Source: Crossaster papposus
Lineage: Eukaryota; Echinodermata; Asteroidea; Velatida; Solasteridae
Assembly (NCBI GenBank): GCA_037893245.1
Contig: JBAIAA010000513.1
Coordinates: 124,001-188,000, forward strand
DNA: 64,000 nt
Direction of reading: 5' to 3'
The translations under genes and the position numbers were made by a program. Under the pieces are notes generated by a model. The model was not told the DNA's origin, ran no database searches, and saw nothing but the letters and a program-made list of their open reading frames with translations. This document shows positions 12,900 to 53,192 of the stretch, piece after piece; the stretch's first letter is position 1; every line of letters starts with the position of its first letter.

Positions 12900-13854
12900 A
12901 TTTAATACTGTATTACTATTACCTGTATGCTTGTAACGTGACATAAAAGCCTCACTTACTAACAACGGTGGGTAGTTAGATCGGGTGGAGCGGCAACCAC
13001 GCCAATGGTGTTTGGCCTATAAGCGCAGGATGAAATGCAACGATGTGCGCCTGACTACGCGCGTAGTGATGCGGAGATTTTCTCAATGCCCATGACGCCC
13101 TATTTCTTGCTAGCTTTACATCATCAGCCGGTAGTCGAACACTGAAACTTAATCCACATTGCCAGTGGGATTTAAAAGAGAGAGGAAAAAATACGCACTT
13201 TAGAATCACCAAGCAAAAAATCACGAGGATGACAGTGACGCGTGATAGATATTCTGGCTTTTTACGCAAGCCCACCCAGACTGTGTATGCCCACCCTCGT
13301 AACGAGTCGCAATTTACCCTCTAATGGAAATTGAAGCCAAAAGCTTTTACTGCATGGATGCCAATGGCTCTGTCACTTCCGATATATCTTTGTACAATCA
13401 TTTTGACAGGGTCGTGTATGGCACGTTTATGGCACGAAAACGTGAAAACGTGTCACCTTGATTTCACACGCAAACTATTCCCCCCCCCCTCCTGTTTTTC
13501 ATTGTTAGTCCGATTTCTTCTCCGATAATGACCGTTGTTTACGGGCATAACATAACATTGTGTTATATTCGAAATGTTTTTAATCGCATAGTAGCGCCAC
13601 CATACTAAACAGACACGAATTCTCGCAACAAAATAAGTTCTCAGTTATTACTAGTGTGACTCCGATCGTGCTCCGATATAATAGAGTTCAGTGGATGAAT
13701 TCCGAGAAACTGAATCAGCTGACACTATCAACCAATCAGCATATTGGTTCACATTAGCGCTCAGAATGACGTCGCACGTTATGCTAATAATATGTCTACA
13801 TGGTTCGGAGATGGTTCCGTATAACAACGCATATGGACTATTAATAAGTACCTA
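12900..13854. other. non-coding, nothing recognised
   Basis: Short anonymous open frames only. A poly-C stretch lies near 13481-13490. Confidence 0.4.
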
Positions 13855-14155
13855 TAGGAGAGTTCATAGCTTCTGATTGGTCGAGACTCGATCACGTGGA
13901 GAGCATTATCACGCGGTAATTGACCGGGCTTTCAAAAATTGAAGAAAATTTACTGTTTATTTCCTAAATAAATAGGTATTTATTAAAGGGAATAACAGGG
14001 CGAGAACCCGGTCATTCACTGCATTATAATTGACCGGGTTGGGCGATGACCGCTGGTAATAGACCTCGCCTTCGGCTCGGTCTATTACCATTGGTTATCT
14101 CCCAACCCGGTCATTTATCACGCAGTAATGACCGGTTCCTCACCCTGTTATGCCC
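13855..14155. mobile_element. dispersed repeat family F, copy 1 (palindromic)
   Basis: This matches 25838-26048 from TAGGAGAGTTCA onward through GATTGGTC, CGATCACGTGGA and ATTGACCGGGCTTTCAAAA. Within it, GGGTGAGAACCCGGTCAT-type words appear on both strands around a hairpin at 14062-14093 (TAATAGACC / GGTCTATTA), so the right half is a palindrome. The repeated word is TAATTGACCGGG. No coding capacity is seen. Confidence 0.7.
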
Positions 14156-14159
14156 TAAG

Positions 14160-14542
14160 TAATCGTCCTTGTGCCAGGTAAATCTACTTAATCCGTCCTT
14201 TTCATTCCTATTAGAATGACGTAGCTTCTTGAGGCAAAATGAATACCAAATGAAAGATATTTTGATTATATATCAATTTCCCGAAAACCCGAATTTGACC
14301 TTTTGGCCCATTTTTCGACCTCACGACCTTCTTCCGGATACCCGACGAATTAACATTTTTGAGTAGATACATTTCTTGTTTTATATAAATGTACTTATAT
14401 AATTAATGTTTTGTACTCTGTAAGAAACAACGTTGAATAAAGATTGTCCAGCAACAGTTGCAGTGCAATACAATACGATAGCAGTGTCCGGCCTACAAGT
14501 CAGTAAATCAGAAAGTCAGTCAATCGGTCAGGTCTGAGACCA
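14160..14542. other. unassigned DNA with a possible poly(A) signal
   Basis: AATAAA occurs at about 14436 after an AT-rich stretch. I see no exon before it and treat the signal as unproven. Confidence 0.3.
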
Positions 14543-14785: not shown

Positions 14786-15969
14786 CAGTACAAACCGAAG
14801 CGATTTCTTATTCTGGAAAAAACAAAGTCTGTAGGTGTCAAGATGAGCAACTTCAGTCTAAAAGTTGGTGCGTCCGTGTTTTTTACAAAAAAAATCGAAC
14901 GAATTTTTAAGATAAGATAAGTAGTTTGTGGGAACACCATGTGGTAATTCTCTAATAGTAGTGAGATGTGTAGGTCTCATCTAAATTTTGAAGAGATATA
15001 AATAATGCACTCTAACGAACACTTTTTTTGTTTTCATTGGCAGACCTTTCTACAGTTTTAAAAAGTGGTGGTTTTGTCATTGCTCAAACTGCGCGCTAGG
15101 TTTTGAGCTAACCCACTGGGCATTTTACCCGATATTACCCAGGTTGTAACGAGTAATAACGCGAGTCACCCAATGTTACCAGGAAGAATGATACCGATAA
15201 TTCTGGCATTGCATTGTTATTACAACCCGATATTACCCCAATATTACCAGGGAGAATGTAACCGATATTTCCGGCATTGCCAAGTTACCACCCGATAATA
15301 CCCCGTTTACCCATCACTATAACAAGTTATTACCGGGTTAAATATCATACCGATGGGTAATACCGGGAAAATATAGCAGACCAATATTTCTCTGTTACAA
15401 CCCATTTATCTGATATTACCAGGGAGAATATAACCGATTTCTGTCATGTTCATGATATATACCAGGGAGAATGTAACAGCATTGCCATGTTATTACTACC
15501 CGGATCCCCGGATCTTGTCGTAAAATGTCAACTTCTTGCTGAATCCTCTCCCGTAATTCCACAAGGTTCCGTGGGGGACTAGCGTAGACCTTATTCTTAA
15601 ATTAAGGTATCCCCAAAGGAAAAAGTCACATGGAGTCTAGGATTAGGATTACATAATTCAATGTCGGTCATTGAACCTGGGCCACATAAAGACGCGGTTA
15701 GATGCACACCACTGACCGCGAAGAGGGATGGTTCATTTCTATGTGGCTTACAAAATTATTAATTTGGACATTTCTGAAATCTGCCTATAGTTTTCAAGAC
15801 AATGGTACTCAGTTACCATGACCGTAGGCCTGCGATGTAGGTGTCAGAAGAAAGCTTGTAGCTCCTACTTTCTGATATTGACTTCAGTTTTTCCATGAAA
15901 TGTATACTTTCGGGATTATGGCCATTTTCCGCTGGGTTTTGTTTTTTTAAGGTTCACCCTGTAGATTTA

Positions 15970-16950
15970 GTTTTTAAAAGTAATAATTCTATCTTTTGAT
16001 CGTTTGTTAGCCCAATCTTTCAATTGGGCGGTGAAAAATTAGTCTTTAGACTCATTAAATTGTTCCTCTGCACGGAAATCTTTAGTAAAAGGCGAAAGAT
16101 TTATGCGAATGCAGAGAAACCAGAGTGATGGGAAATACAATTTAGGGTAGTCTTGTAAAGTGAGTATCTTGTGAGTCACAGTAAGGTACTCACGTACCGG
16201 ATTACAAAAATACTTGCTGGCTTTTCTTGCTAACAATAACAGAAATTGTGTTTATAAACAAAGTAAATCAAAACTAATACTAAATAATAAGGTTTTATCT
16301 GGGGAAAAATAATGTTATATTCATAAAAACACAAAATATTGTATGTTGTACAGGGAGTGAACTGTTTAAATATTCATGATTAGAAGGCGTGGCTTCACCA
16401 TGCACAATACATTTAATGGAATGCACTAGTACATTGTACATCTTGTGTGTGGCACATGTACCGGCCGCAACATGCACAATACATTGATAATATGCACTCG
16501 TGCATGCATTCAATGTATTGTGCACGGTGAAGCCACGCCCACTGATCATGAATATTCACACATTCACATCCTGGGCAAAAGTACTGGTAAATTCTACAAT
16601 ATTTGTCTTTTTTTAAATATAACACCTTTTTTTCCCTATGAAACCTGAACAGTTTATATTCAGTTTGTTTTTAAACACATGTTCTGTTATTTTTAGCTAG
16701 TTACAAGAAAACAGACAAGTAATTTTGTAATCCGGCGAGTACCTTACTGTGACTCACAAGATACTCACTTTACAAGACTACCCTAAATTGTATTGCCCAT
16801 CACTCTGGTTTCTCTGCATTCGCATAAATCTTTCGCCTTTTACTAAAGATTTCCGTGCAGAGGAACAATTTAATGAGTCTAAAGACTAATTTTTCGCTGC
16901 CCAATTGAAAGATTGGGCTAACAAACAATCAAAAGATAGACTTTAAAAAC
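15970..16950. mobile_element. ~1-kb fold-back element (near-complete palindrome)
   Basis: Long arms at about 15985-16207 and 16728-16945 are inverse copies: AGCCCAATCTTTCAATTGGG, GCGAATGCAGAGAAACC and GTGACTCACAAGATACTCAC all appear on both sides. Inside lies a second inverted pair centred near 16463, carrying AGGCGTGGCTTCACC / GGTGAAGCCACGCC and ATGCACAATACATT. Palindromy therefore continues almost to the centre. No transposase is visible. It lies inside the interrupted array element at 15112-18231. Confidence 0.8.
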
Positions 16951-17096
16951 TACAATATTATACCAATGGCCAGTCATCACTACACAGATACTAAACAATA
17001 ATTCACTGAACTATCTGTACCAAGTCAATCAAACTGTTGAAGTTTGGCAGGTTAAGTAGTGTACCAATAATTACTGAACCTGTTAGCTGTTGTTCT

Positions 17097-17240
17097 AGCC
17101 TTCACCTAGTTGTGGGGACAGGTTCTTTTGTTTGGAAAAACAGACCGAGTAGTGGGGACATTTTTGTGTCCCCATAGTGCGTTGGGTCACCAGTAAAGGG
17201 GTCAAGAGGTAGAATTGGGTTAGGGTGAGATCCTGGGGGT
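17097..17240 (+). repeat. dispersed repeat family D, copy 1 (partial)
   Basis: CACCTAGTTGTGGGGACAGG, TTTTGTTTGGAAAA, CCGAGTAGTGGGGACA and the GTTGGGTC block occur in the same order as in 43861-44140 and, inverted, 58193-58477. The right part of the family is missing here. Confidence 0.7.
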
Positions 17241-18231
17241 TAGGGTAATTTTTTTACCTTTCACACACGAGTACATTAGTAAATGGTCACACTTATTAAA
17301 CACATTTTTTTCTTTTGGGTTTTTTCTGGCAGCTTCATTCTTATAATCATGGCAAAGTATTCCAATCACTGCTGGCAAACGTGTCAACAAGCCTGCAAAT
17401 TATGCGCAATACTTCTTTAGCTCCCATTATTAAAAAACTAAATAAAATAAACCATCCAATTACAAGAGGGTTCCAGGAAAAGAATATTATTAACTTGTTA
17501 ATTGGTTAATTATATTGGTTTATACTAATATTACGATACTACCGAAACAATACTACAATGTATCATATAAACATCAATTACTATTCTGAGCTTGCCACTC
17601 CTACAGTCCTAGCGTGTACTAAATTGCTATAATATGTGCCCAATATCATTATCACCGCCGTCTGTAATCACAGTTTGCAATTAATTTTGTGTTAATTTTT
17701 ATTTTATTTTTTGCTTTTTGGCAAATTTGTTTCTTTGAGACTTGGAGTAAATAAATATTACACAATTATCTCTACGAAAACACCCTAAACGTATCAATAT
17801 TAGTACGCAAAACATATAACGTTCATGTAGAAAAAGTGACAAGATTGTTTCACCAAGGTTTATCACTCCAAATTGGGGTCAACATGTAAATTGAGTTCAC
17901 CCGATATTACCCCATTTACCCAATATTATCAGGGAGAATGTAACTGATATTTCTGGCATTGCCGTGTTATTACCCCCTGATATTACCCCATTACCCAATA
18001 TTACCAGGGAGAATGTAACTGATATTTCTGGCATTGCCGTGTTATTAACACCTGATATTCCCCCATTTACCAAATAGTACCAGGGAGAATGTAACTGATA
18101 TTTCTGGCATTTTCATGTTATTAACTCGGTAAAATGTTACCCATTACCCTGTTATAACTCACTAAAATGTCGGTTTCAACAGGGCAATATAAACAGTAAT
18201 ATCGGTAATCGGTAACAAATTGCCCAGTGGG

Positions 18232-27435: not shown

Positions 27436-28690
27436 TATGGGAACGAGCGACTCCCCCTACTGTCCAGTCAAAATACCAATTGTTGTATTGTTGACCTCAA
27501 ACAAATTGTAACAAATATTTTGTTCACCACAGTGCACTTCTATAAGGTCCCTAGAATTAGTGGTGGAAATATATCTAATTTGCATAAATCGTTAATCCCT
27601 GCCGTGTAATATGTTTATTCCCATATTTGGGTATAGGCCTATATTTTATTTTTATTTTTCGAAAGGTTTATTTTGGTGATTCTACTTACACATTCTTACT
27701 TCAATAACTTTTTCTAAAGCATGTAAGTGACTGAATAATATTGAAAATAGAGTAATGGTTCAAAATGACTATAATTTTAGCCTATAATTTGCACGCATTT
27801 ACCTTGTCTCAAGATATCATCAAGTATTCAGTATGGACGAGCTTCAAATTCACAAAGTTGCTTACTGGTACAGTTATCCTATTAAAACCTTATGAAAAAT
27901 CATTTTGAACAATGATAACATTGTGATATTTAGCCCAGCAAACAACAACTGGGGGGAAATCGTGTGTCCATAAATTGGGCTAAACAGTAGGTGAAGGGTT
28001 ACCTAAGGTGAGCGACTTTAACAAGTTCAAGGAAACCCCCCAAATTAAAGATGTTTGTTGCTTACAATAATCATATCTACGTTAGAATGTATTTTGAGAA
28101 TTTTCTTGAACTTGTTCAAGTCTCCCATGTTAGGTAACCCTTTAACTTCTTTTTCGCCTAGTTTATGAACAAACCATTCCCCCCCAGTTTTGGTTTGCTG
28201 GGCTAAATATCACAATGATATCATTGTTCATATTATTTTCCATAAGGTTTTAATATGATAACTGTGCCAGTAAGCAACTTGGTGAATTTGAAGCTCACCA
28301 ATACTGACTACTGAATGATATCTGGAGACAGTGTAATGTACGCACATTTATAGGGTCACGAAGTTGTCATTTTGGATAATTACCATGTTCTCATTATTAT
28401 TCAGTCACTTATACGCCTTAGAAAATGTTATCGAAGTATATGTAAGTAGAATCACCCAAATAAACTTTTCATTTAAAACAAAATATATTATATACCCAAA
28501 TATGGGAATAAATATATTACGCGGCAGGGATTAACGATTTATGCATTTTTAAAGACTTTTAATATGTCATTGTGGGGACCTTTTAGAGATGCCTTGTGGT
28601 GAATTGTTTGTTGTTACAATTTGTTTGAGGTCAAAACTTATTTTTCCTGGACTACTAACACTTTGTTAGGGGGAGTCGCTCGTTCCCATA
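27436..28690. mobile_element. 1.25-kb palindromic (fold-back) element
   Basis: It starts TATGGGAACGAGCGACTCCC and ends with the inverse, GGGAGTCGCTCGTTCCCATA. The arms stay complementary with scattered mismatches to a centre near 28063: ATTAACGATTTATGCA, TGGGTATA, AGCTTCAAATTCAC, TTAGCCCAGCAAAC and GGGTTACCTAA all have inverse partners at matching distances. No open frame of note is present. The length and completeness of the palindrome are unusual. Confidence 0.85.
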
Positions 28691-28698
28691 ACACCCAC

Positions 28699-29225
28699 GT
28701 CACATTTGCTCTACGGCTAGGATACGGCGGCCGTAACCCCCCGAAATCAAGAGATACCTGCGGCAGCCGCAGAGGATCTGCGGTAGCCTCAGGGTCGCCC
28801 TAGGGCGTATCCCTATGTTTTACAGGCCCTAGGGGTAGCCGTGGGATTATAGCGCGGAGTTATAACTGTTTTCATTTCTAGGTTCGCCGTAGCAATTAGA
28901 CACACCGGCGCGTAGCCATGCCGTACTAGAGTGGTTACACGGCGACCATACGTCGGGCGTACGGTGGCGCTATGGCCTTGCGTTTGCCGTGCATCTGCCC
29001 TGGGGTCTTATGAATTACAATTGACTTTTGCAGACCCCAACAAAACGGCGGCGGCCGCATGAATTCCACGGGCATCCTTAAGGCGGCCCTACGGTGCCCG
29101 TACGGTGGCCGGTACCCTAACATAATTATGTGACTGCTACAGTATGTGACCGTGGGAATGCTGCGGTGGCTCTATAAATTGGCAGTAGGTATTTTAAACC
29201 CTACGGCCGCCGCGGCAAATGTGAC
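28699..29225. mobile_element. GC-rich word-iterated element 1
   Basis: GTCACATTTGC at 28699 faces GCAAATGTGAC at 29215-29225, and both are followed inward by CGGCGGCCGTA-type sequence. The interior is GC-rich and consists largely of degenerate CGGCNGCCGTAG words on both strands. Open frames across it are low-complexity artefacts. No target duplication is evident. Confidence 0.6.
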
Positions 29226-29281
29226 TAGGCTTTAGGCTTTAGTCTCCCATACCATATAATTCCCTGGACTATTGTTACCTA

Positions 29282-30001
29282 AAGCTATAGTCACATTACC
29301 CAAAAGTAACCTGCTCGGCGGCCGAGCGGCGAGTTTTTAACCAATTCTGCCCGGCCACCGAGCGGCGGCCGCCCACGCACCGCTCGTTTTTAGGGCATCG
29401 CTCGGTCGCCGCTGAAGTTTTAGCGCGGAGTTAAAATTTGGGCGGCGCCTGCTCACTTTTCACTCGCCGCCCAAAATACGCTCGGTGCCTTGGCGGTCGC
29501 TGCCCGGGCACCGACCTAATCGAGCGTTCGCCGTTGAGCGATTTAAGTCAAAAATCGAAGCCGCTAGGTCAGAGGCTGCCGAGCGGTCGCCGCCCGGTCG
29601 CCGCTGGGAGATCAATCGGTCACTGGGAGGCGAGTTCAAAATCGGTCGGCGTCCAGCAGCGCCAGCTCCATTCACCGCGACGTCTAGCCCCGTCGATTAC
29701 CGGCCGGCCGCCGGGCAATTTCTTTAAAATCAGCCGGTGGCTGATGGAAGACCGCCCGGCAATCGGAGGGTCACCGGTCGGTCACTGCCGGGACACCGCG
29801 CGAAAAAGCTCCGCGATTTCGCCCAGTTTTGACCTAAAATCGACCGGCGACCGACGGGAAATCGACAGGTCACCGCCCAGGCACCGCCCAGGCACAGCCT
29901 GCTCGACTTCTCCAAAAATCGCTGGGCGATGCCTAAATTACAGCAGCGACCGAGCAGGCTACTGATCGGTCGGTCGCTGCTCTGATTTGTGACCATAGCT
30001 T
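29282..30001. mobile_element. GC-rich word-iterated element 2
   Basis: AAGCTATAGTCACA at 29282 faces TGTGACCATAGCTT at 29988-30001 (13 of 14 bases pair). Each is followed inward by CCTGCTCGG. The interior is a very GC-rich patchwork of the words CGGTCGCCGC and GAGCGGCG. The 175-codon and overlapping open frames at 29438-29996 follow from this low-complexity GC-rich sequence and look like Arg/Pro/Gly-rich noise on both strands. Confidence 0.65.
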
Positions 30002-30151
30002 AACGCACCCCACCAAAAAAAAAAACCCGCCCAAGAAGAAACCGCAACATTGCACAAGCACAATGACCACCACAAAGGATGGGGGGGGGGGGTTCTTTTC
30101 GTCCCATATATTGCTTCATATGGGTCAGTCATCGAGCTCCACGCTATTTAA

Positions 30152-30903
30152 TACCCCCGTCACACCGGACTGGCGTCCTTACTGCGTTCCTACGGCGACC
30201 CAGGACGCGGTAGGGACGCCATGGACGCCGCGGGGTCGTGGTGAGAACGCAGAAGGACGCCGTGGGGACCCCAAGGACGCCGAAGGTCGCAGAGCGACGG
30301 CGTTTACTTCGGACATGTTCAAAGTAAACGCCGAGGTTTGGCGTCCTGGCTCAGGACGCGGTGGGATCGCCCTGGGGTCGCCATGGTCGCCGTAGCAACG
30401 CAGTAGGAACTCGAAGGACGCCCTAGGGACGCAGTATGGACGTGGTAGGGTCGCCGTGGAGACGCGAATAAATGGATCGTGGACCCCGCGGCGACCTTAC
30501 TGCGTCCTTACCACGTCTATGGGGTTCTTACCACGACCCCACCACGTCTATGGCGTCCTTACTATGCCGTGGAGTCGCCGTTGGGACGCCGTGCAAACTC
30601 AATAGAAACGCCAAGGACGCGGTAAGGTCGTGGTAGAAACGCCAAAAACGCCGTGAGGTCGCCGATGATCGCCGTGGGGACGCCGTGCAAACTCAATAGA
30701 AACGCCAAGGACGCGGTAAGGTCGTGGTGAGAACGCCGTGGGGACGCCGAGTAGACGTACAGATCGCGGAGCACAGGACCCCGGTGTGACGGGTGACCGA
30801 AATCTTGATATTTTAAAGAAAAAGAATTGGGGTTCTCACGGCGACCATCGACGTCCTCCATTTTAGGACGCAGTAAGGACGCCAGTCCGGTGTGACGGGG
30901 GTA
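30152..30903. mobile_element. GC-rich word-iterated element 3, Harbinger-like ends
   Basis: A 36-base perfect terminal inverted repeat starts TACCCCCGTCACACCGGACT. TAA flanks both ends (30149-30151 and 30904-30906), fitting the TWA target of PIF/Harbinger elements. The interior repeats degenerate GGACGCCGTAG words every 9-12 bases, and the same word is part of the TIR. A 94-base direct duplication, marked by GTGCAAACTCAATAGAAACG, is at 30591 and 30685. No transposase is present, and the two open frames within are repeat artefacts. Confidence 0.8.
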
Positions 30904-31101
30904 TAACCCTATCAATCCCAAGAGTGCCATATGGACTCAATGAAGCTTACCATTGTGACGTAACGTCACACAAATACAATGGGCTTTCAATAGCACATTG
31001 CCGTAATGCATTGAACTGAAATGTAAATAATAATAATAATAATAATAAAGTATTTATAGAGCGCTTTTACAAGATAGATCAAAGCGCTGTACAAGAGAGG
31101 A

Positions 31102-31842: not shown

Positions 31843-32553
31843 CTAATCATGTATTTGGGAAATGCATTTGGAGAGGTTTTCAAGAGCAATTGCAGAATCA
31901 CCAGGAATAGCTGGGTTGAAATGAGTGTAAAGCTGTATGTCGTCTGCATAAATGTGATATTGTAAATTGGAGTGTTCAATGATACCAGCAACAGGTTTGA
32001 TGTAATATGTGAAAAGTGCAGGCCCGAGTACAGACCCTTGGGGTACACCAAAAGCTACCCTAGATTCGTCAGACATGGTACCATCGACCCGGACGCGGTA
32101 TCTGCGATCACAAAAGTAACTGGTGAACCAGGATGGGGGCATGTCGCGGACCCCGTACACTTTGCACAACCTATCGAGGAGTATTTCATGATCTAAAGTG
32201 TCAAATGCAGATGACAGGTCAAGCATGACCAGCAAAACCACTTTCTTGTTGTCAATGACTCGGAGAATGTCATTTTGTACACGGAGAAGGGCTGTTTCTG
32301 TGCTATGATTACATTTGTAGGCAGATTGGAGTGGGACTTCTAAGTTGTTATGGGCAACATGTTCAGTTAGTCTTTTGTAAACAATTTTCTCCAGTAATTT
32401 AGACAAGAATGAGGTATTGGAAATAGGACGGTAGTTTTTAAAATCATTATGGTCAAGTGTTGGTTTTTTGAGGATAGGTGTAACAATGGCTTGACGGAAG
32501 CAGTCCGGAAATCTGCCCAAGGACAACGAATTATTTATGATGTGAGCCAGCAT
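31843..32553 (-). pseudogene. LINE reverse transcriptase, N-terminal part of the surviving frame
   Basis: 236 residues show the RT landmarks in order: FKNYRPIS (38-45), the catalytic-fold motif LDLSSAFDTLDH (111-122), GVPQGSVLGP (169-178) and the active-site YADD (202-205, bases 31939-31950). These carry the metal-binding aspartates. The frame stops at a TAG at 31843-31845 after SQIHD. Family members normally have Trp there, so one G-to-A change (TGG to TAG) explains it. The frame has no other lesion, so the copy is fairly young. Confidence 0.9.

Positions 32554-37083: not shown

Positions 37084-53192
<16,109 letters not shown>

Follow-up and report, generated by a model that had tools for sequence, protein, structure and literature searches.

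Three adjacent GC-rich elements, here called E1, E2 and E3, occupy positions 28692-30903 of a 64,000-nucleotide stretch of the genome of Crossaster papposus (Asteroidea; contig JBAIAA010000513.1, positions 124,001 to 188,000), which we refer to as the window. We assign a probability of about 0.6 to the reading that they are non-autonomous PIF/Harbinger elements, in which arrays of a word of about 10-11 bp are putative binding sites of the element's MADF protein. E3 is an internal-deletion derivative of a 4-kb PIF/Harbinger element that has kept both ends and both non-coding arms, as follows from the match of both arms to a 4-kb element with DDE_Tnp_4 and MADF genes. The original prediction, made from the letters of the window alone, had described separate elements, each with inverted ends around an interior in which a short word recurs in many degenerate copies and in both orientations, and this description is borne out. 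Its further proposal of a transposon class without a name is not: E1-E3 carry PIF/Harbinger-type TWA flanks and one end motif, and the connection of E3 to a two-gene Harbinger element rules out a new class.

E3, its two-gene relative and the ends of the three families

The source assembly (1.02 Gb in 1,841 contigs) was searched with each element, and copies elsewhere in the genome set the element ends. The features are as follows (TIR, terminal inverted repeat).

28692..29231, unstranded: E1, non-autonomous element, family TIR [C/A][A/G]CCTAAGTCACATTTGC; ends from genomic copies, word matches in the family consensus; flanks TAA (28689-28691) and, read by eye, TTA (29232-29234)
29283..30000, unstranded: E2, non-autonomous element, family TIR AGCTATGGTCACA, window left end AGCTATAGTCACA; flanks TAA (29280-29282) and TAA (30001-30003)
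30152..30903, unstranded: E3, internally deleted PIF/Harbinger element; TAA flanks at 30149-30151 and 30904-30906
30152..30563, unstranded: E3, left subterminal arm with word array; matches the 4-kb element at G000:C112 in the arm outside its transposase gene
30566..30903, unstranded: E3, right subterminal arm with word array; matches the 4-kb element in the arm outside its MADF gene
30152..30187, + strand: E3 left TIR, 36 bp, perfect
30868..30903, - strand: E3 right TIR, 36 bp, perfect

The E3 repeats form part of a perfect 37-bp inverted pair (30151-30187 and 30868-30904), 36 bp of which lie inside the element. In the window copy of E1, the spacing at the right end is one base less than usual, and the fixed-offset script therefore scores its flank as not TWA.

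All three are multi-copy families in the source genome, with copy numbers that are lower bounds, as the best 40 candidates were scored per query. E3 has at least 37 nearly full-length matches of 86-100% identity, besides partial ones; E2 recurs in pieces at 89-100%, and the main pieces of E1 at 80-88%, the window locus and a near-identical duplicate excepted. Patterns built from the ends gave 171+160 genome matches for E3, 114+101 for E2 and 108+102 for the E1 type, against 0+0, 0+1 and 1+2 for the reversed-pattern controls. The three elements also occur together a second time, at about 100% identity, at G000:C191:1175685-1177976 (window 28660-30920), which represents either the alternate haplotype or a recent duplication.

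About 100 of the 331 E3 end places were listed. These include two end pairs on contig C112, each with a span of 4,071 bp, and we read one of the two copies. It consists of the E3 left arm (100% identity over query positions 12-424), a transposase gene, a second gene on the opposite strand and the E3 right arm, which was also matched; the same TIRs are thus found on a coding 4-kb copy and on gene-less E3 copies. The transposase open reading frame (ORF) matches DDE_Tnp_4 (Pfam PF13359, E 4.8e-19, 69 bits against a cut-off of 24.8), and the second ORF matches MADF_DNA_bdg (PF10545, Myb/SANT-like, E 1.8e-6, 28.6 bits against a cut-off of 22). No Pfam family was matched by the N-terminal piece of the transposase or by a third ORF. 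Both genes read inward: that of the transposase comes after the left arm on the + strand, and the MADF ORF begins beside the right arm on the - strand. The transposase frame of this copy is interrupted by a stop; relatives on C833, known from their frames, have 98-99% identity and frames of 495 and 489 amino acids without stops. E3 itself is without the coding middle, and its arms join near 30564. A third long E3 end pair, of 3.4 kb, is present at C84 among the listed end places.

The E1, E2 and E3 families share the end motif TWA + 7 nt + GTCACA at an identical offset. The family ends read TACCCCC, AGCTATG or CACCTAA, followed by GTCACA, with TACCCCC the end of E3. The exact motif occurs five times forward and three times in reverse in the window, and E1-E3 supply five of these eight occurrences. 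TWA is found on both sides in 25 of 35 distinct E3 copies (70 rows, each copy listed in both orientations), with identical flanks in 18 and TAA..TTA in seven (binomial p about 0.02 for 18 of 25 identical). For E2, 19 of 24 copies have TWA on both sides, 15 of them identical, and for E1 8 of 15, seven of them identical. Judging by target flank and end motif, E1 and E2 are probably non-autonomous PIF/Harbinger elements as well. A CACTA (En/Spm) element, suspected from GTCACA...CACC, is ruled out by the DDE_Tnp_4 transposase, the flanks and the TACCCCC ends of E3.

Wherever the two TWA flanks of an E3 or E2 copy differ, the order is TAA-element-TTA (11 of 11, out of 44 copies with TWA on both sides) and never TTA-element-TAA. 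These copies are L077 (twice), L090, L091, L094, L095 and L098 for E3, and L041, L045, L062 and L065 for E2; the sole opposite case is the E1 copy L037. Plain mutation or end swapping should yield both orders. In one of these copies, L065 (G000:C152:324896-325781), E2 sits directly at an E1 end, its own end being followed by GTCACATTTGCTCTACGGC; the two relatives can thus nest at each other's TWA flank. Identical TAAATTATCTGTCACATTTGC was found at 8 of about 100 listed places (on C22, C74, C82, C87, C124, C146, C192 and C281), which share the E1-type end and are without a partner end nearby among the matches listed; perhaps they belong to another related family. At G000:C77:603364-611670, four E1-type ends on the same strand, about 2.76 kb apart, mark a tandem array containing the element.

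Word arrays: abundance, common core and unit length

The original prediction had extended its class to counterparts elsewhere in the window, labelled A1, A2, B and C here, and had called for word counts to be compared with shuffled controls. Against 500 dinucleotide shuffles per element (with up to 2 mismatches in E1-E3, 1 in B and 3 in A and C), the words it had named are enriched throughout (p<=0.002 each): 9 vs 0.5 in E1, 17 vs 2.8 in E2 and 24 vs 1.7 in E3; 10 vs 0.5 in A1, 3 vs 0.02 in A2 and 6 vs 0.4 in C; 8 vs 0.4 in the left and 6 vs 0.3 in the right part of B. Since these words were chosen after the fact, a test in which each of 60 shuffles picks its own best 10-mer is fairer. Here E1 (12, shuffle maximum 7), E2 (17, 9), E3 (28, 9), A1 (20, 9), B-left (11, 7), B-right (14, 6) and C (6, 4) beat every shuffle, and A2 (5, 5) does not.

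Ordinary DNA of the window is likewise above shuffles, with a median ratio of 2.3 over 255 windows of 500 bp from the same stretch. Ranked against this local background, E3 (7-8) and A1 (11-12) are prominent, B-right (19 and 45), B-left (31 and 108), C (40 and 82) and E2 (49 and 59) are moderately so, and E1 (104 and 194) and A2 (135) are not. The word-iteration pattern stands for E2 and E3, and only weakly for the window copy of E1. The latter is probably a decayed copy, since it has 17 core matches at <=1 mismatch in 543 bp and the E1 consensus has 31 in 681 bp, sites counted on both strands among them.

Each of the three elements was thought to have a word of its own. Written on the proper strand, however, the words GGCCGCCGTA (E1), GGTCGCCGCT (E2) and GGACGCCGTA (E3) are variants of a common core, GGNCGCCG, with that of E2 the most distinct. 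The exact core occurs 4 times in E1, 8 times in E2 and 12 times in E3, against 2 occurrences in the remaining 61.6 kb of the window; shuffle means are 0.26, 0.63 and 0.45, with a maximum of 3 in 300 shuffles. This overturns the idea of independent words. At <=2 mismatches, each element is enriched in its own word (18 vs 1.6, 12 vs 1.6 and 24 vs 1.7 for E1, E2 and E3 against shuffles), and E1 and E3 are also enriched in each other's word (9 vs 1.0 for that of E3 within E1, 16 vs 1.6 for the reverse). Elsewhere in the window, at 52241-52539, there are clean 10-bp tandem arrays of CACCTCGGGT (17.8 copies) and AGTCGCCGCG (6.9 copies), the latter resembling the E2 word; this GC array (52.2-52.7 kb) has 5 E2-like words vs 0.6 by shuffles and no exact Harbinger end.

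In the two-gene relative of E3, measured at 4,065 bp, 24 of 25 word matches lie in the outer ~400 and ~345 bp and one in the coding interior, where the E1 and E3 words have 0 matches each in 2,640 bp. The words extend into the TIR. Most of those in E3 are on the + strand (23 + vs 8 -), with little difference between the two arms, and the arms are therefore not long inverted repeats of each other.

The top autocorrelation lag is 11 bp in all three elements (z 4.3 for E1, 5.6 for E2, 10.4 for E3), and for E3 the unit is also visible in length differences between copies. We extracted 37 E3 copies from 40 loci (two from L077, none from L006, L097, L099 and L100), which are 96.9-100% identical outside gaps. 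They differ by 16 distinct indels of more than 2 bp, with sizes of 10, 11, 21, 22, 31, 33, 53, 63, 64 and 126 bp. Fifteen of the 16 deviate by no more than 1 bp from a multiple of 10.5 (p 1e-8 against a background of 0.248), and the best-fitting period is 10.5. As some of the 16 may be one event placed differently, each size was also counted once; 9 of 10 then fit (p 2.8e-5). Most changes in unit number occur around the arm junction and in the right arm. E3 arms thus change length by whole units, and this quantisation is demonstrated for E3 only. Interiors that align as ordinary unique DNA had been named beforehand as an observation that would speak against the pattern, and this is half of what we see: E3 copies align end to end at 97-100% identity outside gaps, yet differ by whole word units.

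Possible roles of the arrays

Together, the data suggest a model in which the iterated word of ~10-11 bp is the building unit of the subterminal arms, with the three families using variants of GGNCGCCG. By analogy with known PIF/Harbinger systems, each word would be a putative site for the element-encoded MADF/Myb-like protein, which may recruit the transposase to the ends, and many weak sites together might mark the element as a substrate. Slippage, unequal exchange or abortive gap repair presumably accounts for the gain and loss of whole units in the E3 arrays. According to excerpts of the cited papers, the two-gene plan of PIF/Harbinger elements is on record, and the C112 element fits it (PMC9710019); Harbinger3_DR has a Myb-like protein that binds to a subterminal motif of 9 bp, as told in the same source; and mPing in yeast gives no detectable excision once the Myb-like sequence of ORF1 is disrupted (PMC2836001). 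Repeated ends hold several binding sites in Galileo and may give specificity (PMC3688188, in part), and for CACTA elements, whose subterminal motifs differ by family, the authors suggest a match to the diversity of the binding protein (PMC2613891, in part).

Several observations weigh against this model. Flanks are non-identical in 7 of 25 E3 and 4 of 19 E2 copies with TWA on both sides. An autonomous partner of E1 or E2 is absent among the matches listed (the first 100 of 215 E2 and about the first 100 of 210 E1-type end places); the listed end pairs reach ~2.1 kb, no DDE place was seen by eye near them (150 of 1,818 and 150 of 920 DDE candidates scored), and tblastn with E3-type proteins found no match in the E1 or E2 loci examined. 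No family has a third core base of its own: E1 has C three times and T once, E2 has T four times, C three times and A once, and E3 has A and T six times each. Nor is E2 enriched over shuffles in the words of E1 (3 vs 1.7) and E3 (1 vs 1.0), and within the coding interior of the 4-kb element the E2 word is as frequent as in the richest shuffle (4 vs 1.6, maximum 4). An 11-bp top lag is also present in C1 (z 3.1), the element of example C, and in a spectral test only E3 beats all shuffles (7.6 vs 5.5), with E2 (4.7 vs 5.0) and E1 (3.1 vs 4.5) not above them. Among copies with recognisable ends, to which the indel analysis was limited (24 of E2, out of 30 loci, and 15 of E1, out of 38 loci), E2 has indels of 11 and 44 bp but also of 12, 14, 24, 29, 160 and 192 bp, and those of E1 are mixed, so that neither is clearly unit-sized. 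Helical phasing is unsupported (E3 p 0.054 on the + and 0.038 on the - strand; E2 and E1 not significant). Finally, conservation among copies is no higher in the words than at other sites of matching type, which gives no signal of selection on the words (E1: CpG 0.094 vs 0.107, other G/C 0.061 vs 0.056; E2: 0.0186 vs 0.0176 and 0.0126 vs 0.0136). The conservation test used 22 distinct E2 and 16 distinct E1 rows, references included, in alignments in which the window copy appears repeatedly, both as the reference and among the loci, together with the near-identical C191 duplicate.

Because of this last result, the main rival is that the arms are passive minisatellites, in which a short GC-rich end word was amplified by slippage or abortive gap repair and hitch-hikes without a role in binding. 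The unit-quantised length changes of E3 fit such an origin as well, and variable-unit tandem arrays in Medicago PIF/Harbinger elements were ascribed to abortive gap repair (PMC2213677, in part). We nevertheless regard it as unlikely, given that one core recurs in three families with different ends, that the core is found in both arms of the 4-kb element and not in its interior, and that words occur on both strands. Alternatively, the words could be promoter elements, and the arrays may bind host factors that drive the inward-reading genes of the 4-kb element. The position of the transposase ORF after the left arm (+) and of the MADF ORF next to the right arm (-) would suit this role, as would the GC-richness of the arms (0.65 and 0.62 in the first two 200-bp steps), but the words run on into the TIR and persist in gene-less copies, which makes promoter function very improbable as the explanation; it is in any case compatible with binding by the element's own protein. 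Single strands of E3, E2 and E1 fold better than dinucleotide shuffles (z -13.4 with 20, -6.4 with 20 and -3.4 with 100 shuffles, respectively), which could mean that these are foldback-type elements in which the hairpin and not the word matters. As the perfect inverted repeat of E3 measures only 36-37 bp and its words run mostly on the + strand in both arms, we find this idea hardly credible, and reject a foldback (Galileo-like) element as the main identity of E3.

If the words are indeed sites for the MADF protein, a further step would be that Harbinger lineages in one genome are kept apart by GGNCGCCG-word variants and surrounding bases, each read by its own MADF protein, and that unit number in these adjustable-length landing strips tunes mobility. 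We consider this extension quite improbable, since the families overlap in the third base and none has a fixed one.

Other families in the window and comparison with known systems

The remaining examples of the original prediction are separate families.

40894..41342, unstranded: A1, AT-rich, separate multi-copy family with ends TTAA|CCCTAACCCC...GTTAGGG|TTAA
63630..63890 (approximate), unstranded: A2, separate family, other copies 77-90% identical, few words
15112..18231, unstranded: B, 3.1-kb element with CCCACTGGGCA ends and an inner 80% inverted repeat
13841..14162 (approximate ends), unstranded: C1, separate short multi-copy family with an internal palindrome

Since A, B and C have no exact TWA-N7-GTCACA pair within the window, the idea of a single class fails beyond E1-E3. 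That one mechanism acts on different families is plausible for the three GC-rich ones; the wider class is a mixture. A1 has at least 40 copies (40 scored) at 91-100% identity, and these place its ends near 40894 and 41342 instead of 40854 and 41360, as first proposed. TTAA is present on both sides in the window copy, C631 and C302, of which the latter two share one flank and count once. A1 is the only one of A, B and C that is partly classified, by its TTAA ends, and convergent subterminal repetition is possible in its case. For A2, a 5-bp flank (TACTT) was seen in one copy only. B has tandem units of ~75 bp near its right end, with related copies near the left, and the proposed word lies inside these units; its middle (window 15985-16943) holds a nearly 1-kb inverted repeat, about 80% identical. 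The C1 ends in two further copies have no clear duplication. A retroelement adjoins E3, as indicated by an RVT_1 reverse transcriptase fragment (E 1.6e-26) at window 31846-32553 on the - strand.

The E3 family looks young (97-100% identity outside gaps) and shares one genome with a two-gene relative that has the same arms and with two variant-word families; co-evolution of word and binding protein is therefore directly testable here. How the second (Myb/MADF) protein marks its own element is part of a PIF transposition mechanism described as not thoroughly characterised (PMC9710019, in part). On a more practical level, arrays of GC-rich words that look puzzling in a large genome need not be a new element class but can be the arms of transposons.

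Among known systems, the closest are PIF/Harbinger elements such as Tourist-like miniature inverted-repeat transposable elements, Harbinger3_DR and mPing, with which the present elements have in common a DDE_Tnp_4 gene and a MADF/Myb-like gene, TWA flanks and non-autonomous copies that are deletion derivatives; they differ by arms rich in degenerate GC-rich units of ~10-11 bp and by their own ends before GTCACA. CACTA elements (En/Spm, Tgm) likewise have a short, family-specific motif near the ends in direct and inverted orientation (PMC2613891, in part), but belong to another transposase superfamily and have other ends. Galileo and foldback-like elements also have internally repetitive ends, which in Galileo hold multiple binding sites for the THAP domain (excerpts of PMC3688188 and PMC4079207); Galileo, however, has long true inverted repeats and belongs to the P superfamily, whereas the repeats here are short and the arrays mostly on the same strand. 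In Medicago, the PIF/Harbinger element MtPH-A6-4 has subterminal variable-number tandem repeats whose unit number varies between copies, so that variable subterminal tandem repeats in PIF/Harbinger are already known; its unit, as given in the same excerpt, is 60 bp long with a triplicated 12-base AAACNNCTTATT motif and is found in one plant subfamily (PMC2213677). Compared with MtPH-A6-4, the elements described here add a short GC-rich unit of 10-11 bp, variant forms of a common core in three families from a single genome, and length variation that is quantised by the unit in E3.
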